64,000 nt of DNA from Pseudomonadota bacterium (GTDB lineage Bacteria > Pseudomonadota > Gammaproteobacteria > Acidiferrobacterales > UBA6901). The notes under the pieces are model-generated. The model worked only from the letters and a program-made list of their open reading frames with translations, was not told the DNA's origin and ran no database searches. The position numbers were made by a program, and so were the translations under genes. The stretch lies in assembly GCA_021819085.1 (NCBI GenBank), contig JAKASJ010000001.1, positions 186,001 to 250,000 of the forward strand. The letters run 5' to 3'. The first letter of the stretch is position 1. Every line of letters begins with the position of its first letter. Below, one piece after another: positions 4,025-9,914 of the stretch.

Positions 4025-4197
4025 TCCGCGGTTGACGGCTGACGCCCGCGAAGGCAAAGATTGGCTTTTCCGGAGCGCCACAATCCCGGCCGGCCTGCGT
4101 TCGGTGAGCATGAAAAAAATTCGCGCCAGAGAATCGGAAATTGCCGCTACCGGGCAACCTGCTGCCGGTTATGCGGTGGCACAGCGCCGGCGATAGC

Positions 4198-6504
4198 ATG
4201 CACGACGATTCTCGACCCGCGCCGGCCGGTTCGTCCCCGCAACAGATTGTCGCGAGGCGCTGGATGCTGGGCGGTCGCGTTCAGGCGGTCGGATTCCGCC
4301 CCTTCGTCTACCGCACGGCGCACCGCCACGGACTTTCCGGCTGGGTCAGAAACCGCGGTGGACAGGTCGAAATTCTGGCGCAGGGGACGCTTGCCGCGAT
4401 TGATGAATTCGCCGCCGCGCTGCTGGCCGAGGCGCCGCCCTTGGCGCAACCCGCGCTGCTTTCGGTCGAGGATACCCTGCCCGGTCCTTTGCAGGCGTTC
4501 ACCATCCTGGAAAGCGATGATCGATCGAGCGCTCCCATCCATGTTCCGCCCGATTACTTCGCCTGCAACGACTGCCTGAGCGAAATGCAGGATCCCGGCA
4601 ACCGGCGCTACCGCTATCCCTTCATCAACTGCACGCAGTGCGGTCCCCGCTACACCCTGATCCGGAGCCTGCCCTACGACCGGGCCAACACGACAATGGC
4701 CGGGTTCGCGCTGTGCGACGCGTGCTGGCACGAGTACCAGGATCCGCGAGACCGCCGCTTCCACGCCGAACCGATAGCCTGTCCCGCCTGCGGCCCGGCC
4801 GTGGAATTCCGCGTCCCGGGCGCACCCGTCGTGTCCGGGACACAGGCGGCCTTGGCGGCCGGCGTTGCAGCGCTCCAATCCGGGCAGATCGTTGCTGTAA
4901 AGGGCGTGGGCGGCTATCACCTCATGTGCGACGCGCTCAATGCCACCGTTGTCAAGCGCCTGCGCCTGCGTAAGCCACGTCCACACAAGCCGTTTGCCGT
5001 GATGTTTCCGCTGCGCGGCAGGGACGGCCTGGATGCCGTACGCGAGGCCGTGACGCTCGATGATGAGTCGGCCCGCTGGCTGCGCTCGCCAATGCGCCCG
5101 ATCGTGCTGTGCCGGAAGAAAACCGCCAGTCCGCTCGGCATCGAAATCGCCCCCGGTCTGAGCGAAATAGGCGTCATGCTGCCTTATAGTCCGCTGCATC
5201 ACGTTCTGCTCGCCGACCTCGATGCCCCGGTGGTGGCCACTTCCGCCAACGTGAGCGGCGAACCCGTTCTGACCGAACGCGCCCTACTGGAAGAGCGTCT
5301 GGGGCAGGTCGTCGACGCCGGCCTGCACCACAACCGTCCGATCGAGCGCCCGGCGGATGACGCCGTATACCGCGTCATCGCGCAGCGGCCGCGGCCGCTG
5401 CGCCTCGGACGCGGCGGCGCGCCCCTGGAACGCCGGCTGCCGCTGCGCCTGGAGCGGCCGCTGCTGGCCGTCGGCGGCCACGCCAAGAACACGGTGGCGA
5501 TCGCCTGGGAAGACCGCGTTGTGATCTCGCCACACATCGGCGACCTCGGCTCGCCGCACAGCCTCGCCGTCTTCGAACGGACGGTGGCCGACCTTCAGGC
5601 ACTCTATCGCGTTGAAGCATCTGCGGTGGTATGCGATGCCCATCCCGGCTATGGCAGTACACGCTGGGCAAAACGGTGTGGCCTGCCACTGGCCGAGATA
5701 TACCATCACCACGCACACGCCTCGGCTCTTGCCGGAGAGTTCCCCGAGGCGGGCGCCTGGCTCACGTTCACCTGGGACGGTGCCGGTTATGGAGAAGACG
5801 GGACACTGTGGGGCGGAGAGGCACTGCTCGGCCGCCCCGGTGCATGGCGGCGGGTGGTACGAATGCGGCCGTTTCATCTGCCGGGGGGTGAGTACGCGGC
5901 GCGCCAGCCGTGGCGCAGCGCGGCGGCGCTTTGCTGGGAAACCGGAAACGCCTGGGACTCCTGCCCCGAAGACACGACGCTGCTGTTTGCGGCGTGGCAG
6001 CGGCATCTCAACAGCCCGATGACCACCGCCGCCGGAAGGCTTTTCGATGCGGCTGCCTCATTCACCGGATTGCTTCATCATGCAAGCTTCGAGGGTCAGG
6101 GCCCCATGTATCTCGAGGCGGCGTGCGCCGCATCCGCGGAGATGGTCGTCCTTCCGCTGCGGCGCGCAGCACAAGGGCTGTGGGAGTGCGACTGGGGGCC
6201 GCTGGTACCCTACCTTAGCGATGCCACGCTGCCGGTGGCGCAGCGCGCAGCCGGCTTCCACGCGAGTCTTGCCCATTCTCTGGCACAGCAGGCTCGCGCA
6301 CTGCGGCTCGAGCACCGCATCGATGCCGTCGGGCTTACCGGCGGAGTGTTTCAAAACCGTGTGCTGACCGAGCATGCCTGCGCTTTATTGCAGAACGACG
6401 GCTTCAAGGTATACCTTGCACGCGACATCCCGTGCAATGACGCTGGAGTCAGCTTCGGCCAGATCGTGGAGCGTCAGGCGCAGCTGGCCGGGCACAGCCG
6501 GTAG
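4198..6504 (+). CDS. hypF: Carbamoyltransferase HypF
   Basis: Makes the cyanide-ligand precursor for [NiFe]-hydrogenase: it converts carbamoyl phosphate and ATP to carbamoyl-adenylate and passes the carbamoyl group to the C-terminal Cys of HypE. Visible domain order in 768 residues: acylphosphatase-like domain with GRVQAVGFRPFVYR and WVRNRGG (about 20-105); two zinc-finger loops of CxxC-x18-CxxC form (about 120-195); a YrdC-like domain with VKGVGGYHLMCDA (about 215-395); and a Kae1-like C-terminal domain with the metal-binding HHHAHA and the GLTGGVFQN segment. The ATG at 4198 gives a normal family length; an upstream TTG would add 19 unconvincing residues. hypE starts 38 bases after the stop. 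Confidence 0.96.
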   Translation: MHDDSRPAPAGSSPQQIVARRWMLGGRVQAVGFRPFVYRTAHRHGLSGWVRNRGGQVEILAQGTLAAIDEFAAALLAEAPPLAQPALLSVEDTLPGPLQAFTILESDDRSSAPIHVPPDYFACNDCLSEMQDPGNRRYRYPFINCTQCGPRYTLIRSLPYDRANTTMAGFALCDACWHEYQDPRDRRFHAEPIACPACGPAVEFRVPGAPVVSGTQAALAAGVAALQSGQIVAVKGVGGYHLMCDALNATVVKRLRLRKPRPHKPFAVMFPLRGRDGLDAVREAVTLDDESARWLRSPMRPIVLCRKKTASPLGIEIAPGLSEIGVMLPYSPLHHVLLADLDAPVVATSANVSGEPVLTERALLEERLGQVVDAGLHHNRPIERPADDAVYRVIAQRPRPLRLGRGGAPLERRLPLRLERPLLAVGGHAKNTVAIAWEDRVVISPHIGDLGSPHSLAVFERTVADLQALYRVEASAVVCDAHPGYGSTRWAKRCGLPLAEIYHHHAHASALAGEFPEAGAWLTFTWDGAGYGEDGTLWGGEALLGRPGAWRRVVRMRPFHLPGGEYAARQPWRSAAALCWETGNAWDSCPEDTTLLFAAWQRHLNSPMTTAAGRLFDAAASFTGLLHHASFEGQGPMYLEAACAASAEMVVLPLRRAAQGLWECDWGPLVPYLSDATLPVAQRAAGFHASLAHSLAQQARALRLEHRIDAVGLTGGVFQNRVLTEHACALLQNDGFKVYLARDIPCNDAGVSFGQIVERQAQLAGHSR

Positions 6505-6541: not shown

Positions 6542-7561
6542 ATGAAATCGGATAAAACCGGGGAAACCCACATATCCCTGGCGCATGGTAATGGCGGGCG
6601 TTTCATGCGCGAGCTGATCGAACAGGTGTTTGCGCATCACCTGTCGAATCCGCTGCTCGACATCCGGGCCGACGCCGCACCTGTGCCGGTCAGGACAGGA
6701 GAGATCATGATCACCACGGACGGATTCACCGTCCAGCCGCTGGAATTTCCCGGTGGCGACATCGGCTCGCTTGCGGTCCACGGTACCGTCAACGATCTCG
6801 CTGTGTCCGGCGCCGCCCCGCTTTATCTCAGCCTCAGCACGTTCATAGAGGAAGGCATGGAAATCGCCCAACTCGAACGCATCGTGGCCAGCCTCGGCCG
6901 CGCGGCGGCTTCATCCGGCGTGCAGGTCGTTGCCGGCGACACCAAGGTGGTGCGCCGCGGCGAAGGCGGCGGACTCTACATCGCTGTCACGGGCGTGGGG
7001 GTCCGTCCGCCAGGACTGTCACTGGGCATGCAGCACATCCGGGAGGGCGATGCCATAATCGTGAGCGGACCCGTCGGAGACCATGGAATTGCGGTAATGC
7101 TTGCCCGCGAGCAGTTCGGACTGCGCAGCGACCTTCAGTCCGACGCCGCCAGCGTGCTGCCGCTCACCAGCGCACTGCTGCCCATGGCAGGACTGCGATT
7201 CATGCGCGATCCGACGCGCGGCGGACTGGCCACGGTCGCACACGAAATCAGCCGCGCCACCGGCCTGGGCGTGCGTTTGCACGAACAGCAAATACCGGTG
7301 CGCGAGACGGTGCGCTCGGTATGCGAAACGCTTGGCTTTGACCCCTTGTATCTCGCCTGCGAAGGTCGCGTGGTGGCTGTGGTTGCCGCCGACGAGGCCG
7401 CGGCGGCGCTTGCCGCCTGGCGCAGTCTGCCGCAGGGAGGGCTCGCCGCTATCATAGGAAGGACGGAAGGGACGCGGCCACAGGTTGTCATGGAGACCGC
7501 ACTCGGAGGAGAGCGCTTTGTTGAAGAACTCGAAGACGACCCGCTGCCGCGCATCTGCTGA
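6542..7561 (+). CDS. hypE: Hydrogenase expression/formation protein HypE
   Basis: AIR-synthase-fold ATPase that dehydrates the thiocarbamate on its own C-terminal Cys to thiocyanate, the source of the CN ligands of [NiFe]-hydrogenase. The 339-residue product begins with the family opening (LAHGNGGRFMRELI), contains the ATP-binding TTDGFTVQPLEFPGGDIG and VAGDTKVV segments, and ends exactly in PRIC, the hallmark carbamoylated tail. The ATG at 6542 removes an upstream extension that overlaps the end of hypF. HypA, HypC and HypD are not in the window and presumably lie before hypB. Confidence 0.96.
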   Translation: MKSDKTGETHISLAHGNGGRFMRELIEQVFAHHLSNPLLDIRADAAPVPVRTGEIMITTDGFTVQPLEFPGGDIGSLAVHGTVNDLAVSGAAPLYLSLSTFIEEGMEIAQLERIVASLGRAAASSGVQVVAGDTKVVRRGEGGGLYIAVTGVGVRPPGLSLGMQHIREGDAIIVSGPVGDHGIAVMLAREQFGLRSDLQSDAASVLPLTSALLPMAGLRFMRDPTRGGLATVAHEISRATGLGVRLHEQQIPVRETVRSVCETLGFDPLYLACEGRVVAVVAADEAAAALAAWRSLPQGGLAAIIGRTEGTRPQVVMETALGGERFVEELEDDPLPRIC

Positions 7562-7643: not shown

Positions 7644-8345
7644 ATGAAGGAAATTCTGATTTTCCGCCACGCGGCCGGCGAAGGGCCGGGCTACTTTTCC
7701 AGATTCCTGGACCGGCACAGTCTGCGCTACCGCATGGTCCGAATAGACCGGAATGAGCCGGTACCTGCAAACATCGACGACAGCGCCGCACTCGTGCTCA
7801 TGGGCGGACCGATGAGCGTCAATGATCCCCTCCCCTGGATCCCGCAGGTCCTCCGGCTGATCGGCGAGGCGATGGCTGCCGACCGGCCAGTGCTCGGCCA
7901 CTGTCTCGGGGGACAACTACTGAGCAAGGCACTGGGGGGCACGGTCACATCCAACGCGGTGCGCGAAATCGGCTGGTTTCCCGTTCGGCGCGAGGCAAAT
8001 GCCGAGGCGGATGACTGGCTCGACGGGCTCGCACCCGAATTCGAAGCCTTCCACTGGCACGGAGAGACATTCACGATCCCGCAGGGGGGCAGTCGCATCC
8101 TGTCCAGCAATGCCTGCGCCAATCAGGGATTCGTCATCGGAAAGGCGCTCGGCCTGCAGTGTCACGTGGAAATGCTGCCCCGGATGGTTCATGACTGGGC
8201 CCGGATCGGGCGGGAGGAGATTGCCCGACCTTCGGACACCGTCCAGAGCGCCGACCAAATGGCCGAGGCACTGGAAGAACGCATCGGTCGCCTGCATCGG
8301 GTGGCGGATGTCCTTTACACCCGCTGGATGCGGGGCCTGACCTGA
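7644..8345 (+). CDS. Class I glutamine amidotransferase (GMP synthase-like)
   Basis: A stand-alone GATase1 domain of 233 residues. The nucleophile elbow GHCLGGQ (Cys near residue 93), the FHWHGE segment and the late QCHVEM with its catalytic His-x-Glu form the expected triad. MGGPMSVND is the typical oxyanion-strand loop. Such free-standing proteins are often labelled GMP synthase-like, but they lack the ATP-pyrophosphatase half of GuaA. Some act as gamma-glutamyl hydrolases or transferases, so the substrate is open. It lies 82 bases after hypE in the same direction. Confidence 0.88.
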   Translation: MKEILIFRHAAGEGPGYFSRFLDRHSLRYRMVRIDRNEPVPANIDDSAALVLMGGPMSVNDPLPWIPQVLRLIGEAMAADRPVLGHCLGGQLLSKALGGTVTSNAVREIGWFPVRREANAEADDWLDGLAPEFEAFHWHGETFTIPQGGSRILSSNACANQGFVIGKALGLQCHVEMLPRMVHDWARIGREEIARPSDTVQSADQMAEALEERIGRLHRVADVLYTRWMRGLT

Positions 8346-8473: not shown

Positions 8474-9436
8474 ATGGCTGCCGTGACGACCGCCCTACGT
8501 ATCGGCATCGACCTGGGCGGCACAAAAACCGAAGGAATCCTTATGGACAGGCGCGGAGACATCCTGGTGCGCGAACGCCGGGCCACTCCGCAGCACGCGG
8601 GTTACCGTGCCATCCTTGAGAATGTCCGTGACCTGGTTCGCGACCTCGAGCGACATGCCGCCAGTCCCTGCTGCGTGGGAATCGGCACCCCGGGATCGGT
8701 CTGTGCGCGCACCGGGCTGCTGAAGAATTCCAACACCGTCTGTCTCAACGGCCAACCGATCGCCCGCGACCTGGAAACCCTGCTCGGCCGGCCGCTGCGG
8801 ATTGCAAACGACGCAAACTGCTTTGCGCTGAGTGAAGCGATTGATGGCGCCGGCCACGGCCACCCGGTCGTATTCGGCGTCATCCTCGGCACCGGCGTCG
8901 GTGGCGGCATCGTTGTCCACGGCCAGCTCCTGGAAGGACTGCAGCGCATAGCCGGCGAATGGGGTCACAACCTTCTCGATGCGCACGGACCGGCATGCTA
9001 CTGCGGCCGCCGCGGTTGCGTCGAAACCCTGCTGTCGGGACCCGGGCTCGAACGCGACTACACGGCGCAAGGCGCGCACGGACAGATCACCGATGTGTCC
9101 GTCGCCAGTGCAGAGCGCATGCCGCCCGATGCACGCGTAATCGTTGCGCGCGCGCACGCCGGAGAACAACGGGCCGAAGCGGCCATGCAGAGATATCTGG
9201 AGCGCTTTGGGCGCGCCCTGGCCACGGTGATAAATATTCTTGATCCCGATGCGGTAATCCTGGGCGGCGGGCTTTCCAATATCGCCCGGCTCTACGATGA
9301 AGGCCGCGCACAGGTCGCCAGGCACGTTTTCAATGACGAATTGCGAACCCTGATATTGCCGAACGTCCACGGCGACAGTTCCGGCGTGCGTGGTGCCGCA
9401 CGGCTGTGGCCTTTCGGTGCAGACCCGGGCGACTGA
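8474..9436 (+). CDS. mak: ROK-family sugar kinase, Mak (fructokinase) type
   Basis: Phosphorylates a hexose, most likely fructose, using ATP in the cytoplasm. The 320-residue protein has the ROK phosphate loop GIDLGGTKTEG at residues 10-20, the catalytic Asp in IANDANCFALSEA, the GTGVGGGIV loop, and a structural zinc site in CYCGRRGCVETL. The final GDSSGVRGAARLWP segment is characteristic of Mak rather than of NagK or NanK. The ATG at 8474 is preceded by CAGGAG about 14 bases upstream. It precedes, but is not obviously cotranscribed with, the small exported protein that follows. Confidence 0.88.
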   Translation: MAAVTTALRIGIDLGGTKTEGILMDRRGDILVRERRATPQHAGYRAILENVRDLVRDLERHAASPCCVGIGTPGSVCARTGLLKNSNTVCLNGQPIARDLETLLGRPLRIANDANCFALSEAIDGAGHGHPVVFGVILGTGVGGGIVVHGQLLEGLQRIAGEWGHNLLDAHGPACYCGRRGCVETLLSGPGLERDYTAQGAHGQITDVSVASAERMPPDARVIVARAHAGEQRAEAAMQRYLERFGRALATVINILDPDAVILGGGLSNIARLYDEGRAQVARHVFNDELRTLILPNVHGDSSGVRGAARLWPFGADPGD

Positions 9437-9445
9437 ACTCCGACT

Positions 9446-9459
9446 TTGACTGTGATCAA
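9446..9459 (+). promoter_or_regulatory. FNR/Anr-type operator in a class II promoter
   Basis: The sequence TTGAC-TGTG-ATCAA matches the FNR consensus TTGAT-N4-ATCAA at nine of ten fixed positions. A -10 element TATAAA lies at 9482-9487, which places the transcription start near 9494 and the operator centre at about -41.5, the standard class II activator position. There is no good -35 hexamer, as expected for an activated promoter. The downstream gene starts at 9534. Confidence 0.6.
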
Positions 9460-9533
9460 AGTTGCCTTCACTCCGGTCTGTTATAAAGTCTGCCAGCATT
9501 ACGGTACCTGGGCAGATCAACAAGGAGGCAGCA

Positions 9534-9914
9534 ATGAAAAGGTATTTGATATATGGGGTAATCGCCGGATTGCTTGGACCGGGCTTGCTTTCGGTCGCAA
9601 CGGCCGCAGACCAGAATCGGTTGCAGACCCGCGATCAGCTGCAGACACGGGATCGCGATCAGATTTACGGCTACCAATTAATGACGCCGGCAGAACGCGC
9701 AGCGTACCGCTCGCGGATGCGCAGCCTGAACACCGTGCAGGAGCGCGAACGATACCGCCTTGAACATCATCGCGAGATGCAGGAGCGTGCGAGAGAGCGG
9801 GGTGTGACCCTGCCGGATCAGCCGATGCCGCGTGGTGGCGGCATGGGACCCGGACCCGGTGGCGGGATGGGACCCGGACCCGGTGGCGGGATGGGACCCG
9901 GTGCGGGCAGATAG
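9534..9914 (+). CDS. Small exported Gly/Met/Pro-tailed protein
   Basis: 126 residues. The ATG at 9534 follows an excellent ribosome binding site (AAGGAGG at 9522-9528); an upstream in-frame ATG lacks one. Residues 1-27 form a Sec signal peptide ending near VATAADQ. The mature part has a Gln/Arg/Asp-rich repeat-like start (LQTRDQLQTRD), then a charged helical domain with YGYQLMTPAER and EHHREMQERARERGVTLP. This pattern occurs in an uncharacterised family of exported proteobacterial proteins. The tail is three copies of GGGMGPGP-type repeat. Its function is unknown; the FNR-like promoter suggests expression under low oxygen. Confidence 0.85.
   Translation: MKRYLIYGVIAGLLGPGLLSVATAADQNRLQTRDQLQTRDRDQIYGYQLMTPAERAAYRSRMRSLNTVQERERYRLEHHREMQERARERGVTLPDQPMPRGGGMGPGPGGGMGPGPGGGMGPGAGR
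9838..9910. repeat. 24-bp tandem repeat inside a coding region
   Basis: Three near-identical tandem units of 24 bases, each reading about GGCGGGATGGGACCCGGACC plus GGT, encode the Gly-Gly-Gly-Met-Gly-Pro tail of the exported protein. The first unit is slightly diverged and the last is cut short. The unit is a multiple of three, so copy number could change without breaking the frame. Confidence 0.85.

Follow-up and report, generated by a model that had tools for sequence, protein, structure and literature searches.

The sequence at 9446–9494 of the window, by which we mean the whole 64-kb stretch of DNA that was analysed, is very probably a class II promoter of the FNR family, whatever the signal to which it responds, and the protein most likely to act on it is an oxygen-sensing FNR. 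From the sequence we infer that FNR binds, where transcription starts, that expression depends on oxygen, and that the effect is activation and not repression. The promoter itself would be a textbook, ordinary example of an FNR-type oxygen switch. Its value lies in the gene that follows: it ties an unnamed family of exported proteins to probable oxygen limitation and thereby supplies a first testable condition for the function of that family.

The FNR-type operator, TTGACTGTGATCAA (9446..9459, no strand assigned), was recognized by its sequence and by its conservation upstream of homologues; it fits the form TTGAY-N4-RTCAA and is centred at 9452.5. A −10-like hexamer, TATAAA (9482..9487, + strand), begins 22 nt after it. 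Setting the last base of TATAAA at −7 gives a predicted transcription start at 9494 (+ strand), which derives from the −10 hexamer only, and relative to that start the operator centre falls at −41.5. This is the geometry that the preliminary description had claimed, and the coordinates bear it out. By eye there is no −35 element: at spacings of 16, 17, and 18 nt from TATAAA, the upstream hexamers share 0, 1, and 0 of 6 bases with TTGACA. As a candidate −35 element, TTGACT was rejected because 30 nt separates it from TATAAA. Our sigma-70 promoter scan demanded T as the sixth −10 base, so that TATAAA could not be listed and the result of the scan is uninformative here.

Since relatives keep it, the operator is probably real; its conservation upstream of homologues is what lifts it above chance, and the count in the window alone proves little. 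Within the window, TTGAYNNNNATCAA has one exact match, the operator at 9446–9459, and seven matches when one mismatch is allowed, a number that 13 of 100 shuffles reached. Across the whole genome, 40 places match TTGAYNNNNRTCAA, compared with 5 for the reversed control. Thirty-five of the 40 are intergenic, an upper figure because the gene calls around them were rough, home-made ones that miss genes.

To examine homologues we assembled 97 upstream sequences, taken from 79 of 80 wide-scan loci (L072, with 15 nt upstream, was left out) and from 18 of 30 order-level loci. The other 12 order-level loci were omitted as judged repeats of wide-scan records (eight), as incomplete or weak (L024 and L025), or as second pieces of one gene (L029 and L030). 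Removal of seven near-duplicates left 90 sequences. The preliminary description had suggested looking for the same operator before orthologues, and it is there: 25 of the 90 have exact TTGAYNNNNRTCAA no more than 250 nt from the start codon (22 of the 90 within −115..−60), while 200 shuffles gave a mean of 0.08 and a maximum of 1, and other 250-nt windows of the same loci gave 9 of 1730. With up to one mismatch the count rises to 37 of 90 (shuffles, mean 2.6 and maximum 8; other windows, 64/1730). The four central bases vary between homologues, and both half-sites are kept.

In the window's own order the protein was matched in 22 genomes, 15 of which have the exact operator 74–97 nt before the chosen ATG. 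Of the remaining seven, three have a one-mismatch operator at 84–99 nt, two have none, and two could not be assessed (G014 and G040). The protein was unmatched in one genome of the same genus (G004). Left aside were G012's third match and the weak second matches of G005 and G065. G054, G021, and G012 each carry a second copy of the gene (L026, L027, and L028, respectively), with no FNR operator in the 220 nt examined. In the wide scan, 19 of the 80 loci carry the exact operator, including all six from Rhodanobacter, Lysobacter, Dyella, and Oleiagrimonas (L076, L085, L101, L103, L132, and L133), one Burkholderiales locus (L089), and several MAGs; L085 has the exact operator at −156 and a one-mismatch operator at −86. 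The exact operator is missing from 65 of the 90 homologue upstreams, and G006 and G055, both of the window's order, have the gene without the operator at that place; therefore, the use of the protein is independent of FNR.

The spacing between operator and −10 hexamer is conserved as well. We collected 33 homologue promoters, the window's included, that have an operator with at most one mismatch 55–125 nt before the start. In these, a TA in the first two −10 positions is found most frequently 22 nt past the operator (10/33), followed by four at 21 nt and three or fewer at any other offset between 10 and 35. In the window's own genome, TA occurs 21–23 nt after the operator in 26 of 39 distinct operator–gene directions, corresponding to 24 of 32 operators; every other span of three offsets between 8 and 37 scored lower, with 1 to 10 in the non-overlapping ones.

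The genome encodes nine HTH_Crp_2 proteins, and the search for an fnr/anr gene that had been advised in advance was successful. Two of the nine exceed the NCBIfam FNR cut-off of 228 bits (L046, 299 bits; L051, 250 bits), and both align with the solved FNR 5cvr at the N-terminal and central cysteines of the iron-sulfur cluster and at the ETVSR recognition helix, which has the E..SR pattern. Each of the 18 order-level genomes that carry the operator encodes an FNR over the cut-off. Encoding one is nonetheless a weak test because 44 of all 57 order-level genomes searched do so (57 of 96 genomes overall).

We listed 42 genes that neighbour operators in the genome and ran 20 of them against Pfam, bearing in mind that a neighbour need not be the target of its operator. 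The matches included HSP20, sulfite reductase, NnrS, hemerythrin, cytochrome bd subunit I, hydrogenase maturation protease, HypC, acetate kinase, DUF302, DsrE, COX2, aldolase, H+-pyrophosphatase, E1 dehydrogenase, nitroreductase, Fur, and radical SAM; the neighbour at L039 had no Pfam match, and that at L040 matched COX1 below its cut-off. We take this set to resemble an FNR regulon. Together, the conserved spacing of operator and −10 hexamer, the two encoded FNRs, and these low-oxygen-type neighbours support the class II FNR reading proposed at the outset. The window also holds a hypF-like gene (4141..6504, + strand; named by eye from its translation) and a gene with AIRS domains (6542..7561, + strand; PF00586 and PF02769) that is hypE-like, followed by a class I glutamine amidotransferase gene (7644..8345, + strand; PF00117, E 1.3e-13). 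The earlier remark that the hyp genes point to anaerobic or micro-oxic metabolism fits an FNR-form operator just outside the window, at L147:4228-4241 (G000:C43:185227-185240), between the hydrogenase maturation protease gene and hypC and 774 nt ahead of the window's first base.

We propose the following mechanism. At low oxygen, an FNR dimer with its iron-sulfur cluster would bind TTGACTGTGATCAA at −41.5, make up for the missing −35 element, and recruit RNA polymerase to TATAAA; the transcript would then begin near 9494 and give rise to the small exported protein.

The identity of the acting protein is where this proposal meets its strongest competitor. DNR of Pseudomonas is a nitric-oxide sensor. 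Here, DNR-like L054 matches the DNR structure 3dkw (E 1.8e-44) and has PETFSR in its helix, and FixK-like L048 has an LETVSR helix and no cysteine cluster (it scores 144 bits with the FNR model, under the cut-off, and 100 with FixK). Either of these could bind the same site. If one of them were its main user, the signal would be nitrogen oxides or another cue in place of oxygen, while the promoter would stay within the FNR family and its type would be unaffected. The gene for L054 itself carries an FNR-type operator (L040:1501-1514, G000:C3), facing a divergent COX1-like gene (below cut-off). On the same contig, operators also accompany genes for NnrS, hemerythrin, and sulfite reductase; the first two of these, together with the L054 gene, speak for such an assignment. 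There is also a precedent in Dinoroseobacter, where a single Fnr/Dnr site serves both FnrL and DnrD (PMC5398030). Against it, the genome encodes two FNRs with the cysteines, and many of the genes next to operators serve low-oxygen growth in general or fermentation (cytochrome bd, HypC, acetate kinase, and Hsp20). We therefore regard main use by L054 or L048 as unlikely, although it deserves to be kept in view, and continue to favour oxygen-sensing FNR.

Whichever family member binds, it could in principle repress from 9446–9459, for at some promoters where an operator sits does not by itself settle the sign. We consider repression very improbable: the start is known for 23 directly activated promoters of E. 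coli, of which 19 carry the site at −41.5 ± 4 (PMC3688515), and no −35 element is visible by eye at the promoter studied here.

Activation by FNR is not necessarily the only route to expression. A gene for a ROK-family kinase (8474..9436, + strand; PF00480, E 1.2e-76) lies directly upstream, its stop ending 9 nt before the operator begins, and read-through from this gene may therefore also express the exported-protein gene. Fifteen order-level loci have a ROK gene upstream of the homologue (L001–L006, L008–L010, L012–L014, L018, L020, and L024), in two of which (L009 and L013) the operator is missing, and six exact-operator loci (L007, L011, L015, L016, L017, and L021) have no ROK match in the flank examined. 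Because each occurs without the other, operator and ROK neighbour are not tied. That the palindrome is functionless and the gene is expressed by ROK read-through or from another promoter is the least probable explanation we considered, and a barely credible one: the position of the ROK stop, the ROK loci without operator, and the lack of enrichment of one-mismatch matches in the window would suit it, but the half-sites are kept despite a changing centre, the −10 spacing is fixed, and operators occur where no ROK gene was found.

The gene that the promoter would drive (9534..9914, + strand) starts at ATG 9534, and its stop codon ends at 9914. The preliminary description saw in it a conserved but uncharacterized exported protein with a good ribosome binding site, and we agree: a Shine–Dalgarno sequence, AAGGAGG (9522..9528, + strand), and a signal-peptide-like N terminus are both recognizable by eye, homologues exist, and the 126-residue protein matched no Pfam family. 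One scan found 242 stretches that encode members of the family, of which the best 80 were analysed. Beyond the N terminus, the protein combines LQTRDQ-type repeats that vary, a helical core that is conserved (about residues 45–95), and a Gly/Met/Pro-rich tail. The repeats at both ends (9621–9656 and 9834–9911 of the window) vary in number among close relatives, and LQTRDQ units are far more numerous in homologue L004. Over 74 homologues (74 of 81 possible rows of the alignment), Pfam returned 43 families at E ≤ 0.1, none of them consistent; the most widely shared reached 19 of 74 with a best E of 0.003, and the lowest E, 1.8e-4, came from a single member. The AlphaFold model has high confidence over about residues 45–95 only, where it predicts a short helical core. 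A profile search of solved structures gave nothing usable (best E 0.027); with the model, Foldseek gave no match at E ≤ 0.001, and VIA-align gave nothing usable (best Z 4.1).

Spy, CpxP, and ZraP form a class of small periplasmic proteins. The window protein resembles them in being small, exported (as predicted), and helical (in the model), but differs in falling far below the curated cut-off and in having no Pfam or significant Foldseek match. By curated family cut-off it is not assigned to Spy, CpxP, or ZraP: comparison with the NCBIfam ZraP model gave a single weak match over residues 80–121 (E 0.05, 13.9 bits, cut-off 200). None of the three appeared in the structure-search lists, an absence that excludes nothing. 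A search of plasmids with the exported protein gave just one partial match, in Azospirillum, covering 49% of the query. Among the papers searched, none joins Acidiferrobacterales, FNR, and oxygen, and none contains three peptide strings of the family. From predicted export and regulation together, we would guess that the protein acts in the envelope under oxygen limitation.

Homologue genes without an FNR operator display a different feature. Before their Shine–Dalgarno sequence, in the last 75 nt before the ATG, some have a leader inverted repeat, GGGTTG..CAACCC or AGGTTG..CAACCT (L068, L071, L074, L077, L080, L088, L094, L098, L099, L110, and L128). This hairpin occurs in 11 of 79 leaders, where shuffles gave a mean of 0.05 and a maximum of 1, the pattern having been picked from the very leaders in which it was then counted. 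Inverted repeats in general, whatever their sequence, show no clear enrichment (34/79 leaders; shuffles, mean 23.4 and maximum 36). By eye, L083 and L087 retain the hairpin with a G–T pair. Rfam found nothing at gathering scores in the 11 hairpin loci or in L001. Among 60 wide-scan upstreams without an exact operator, searched with hand-typed motifs, a CRP motif was present in one and a loose CRP motif in three, and motifs for sigma-54, HcpR, CpxR, RpoE, RpoH, NarL, and Fur were all absent. In 8 of 80 loci, the exported-protein gene has an Hsp20-like gene (by eye) beside it on the same strand, upstream in L078, L082, L086, L090, L106, L121, and L130 and downstream in L065. A link between hsp20 and the hairpin was dropped, as none of these eight is among the 11 hairpin loci. 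As a tentative idea, and an unlikely one in our view, the exported protein may represent an undescribed low-oxygen envelope family whose control has been swapped between lineages: the window's order and the six Rhodanobacter, Lysobacter, Dyella, and Oleiagrimonas loci would use the FNR operator, and some loci of Gallionellaceae, Sulfuriferula, and Desulfobulbaceae or Desulfocapsaceae the leader hairpin.

The arrangement has counterparts in known systems. The genome combines FNR and DNR types with similar sites, as do the ANR/DNR regulons of Pseudomonas and the FnrL/Dnr network of Dinoroseobacter (PMC5398030 for the latter); unlike in those networks, regulon membership here is read from operators alone. 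Compared with the class II FNR promoters of E. coli, such as narG, nirB, and dmsA (PMC3688515), the left half-site here is TTGAC rather than TTGAT, the start is a predicted one, and the target is an uncharacterized exported protein, whereas the half-sites, the position at −41.5 from the predicted start, and the TATAAA-like −10 element are features that the promoter at 9446–9494 has in common with them.
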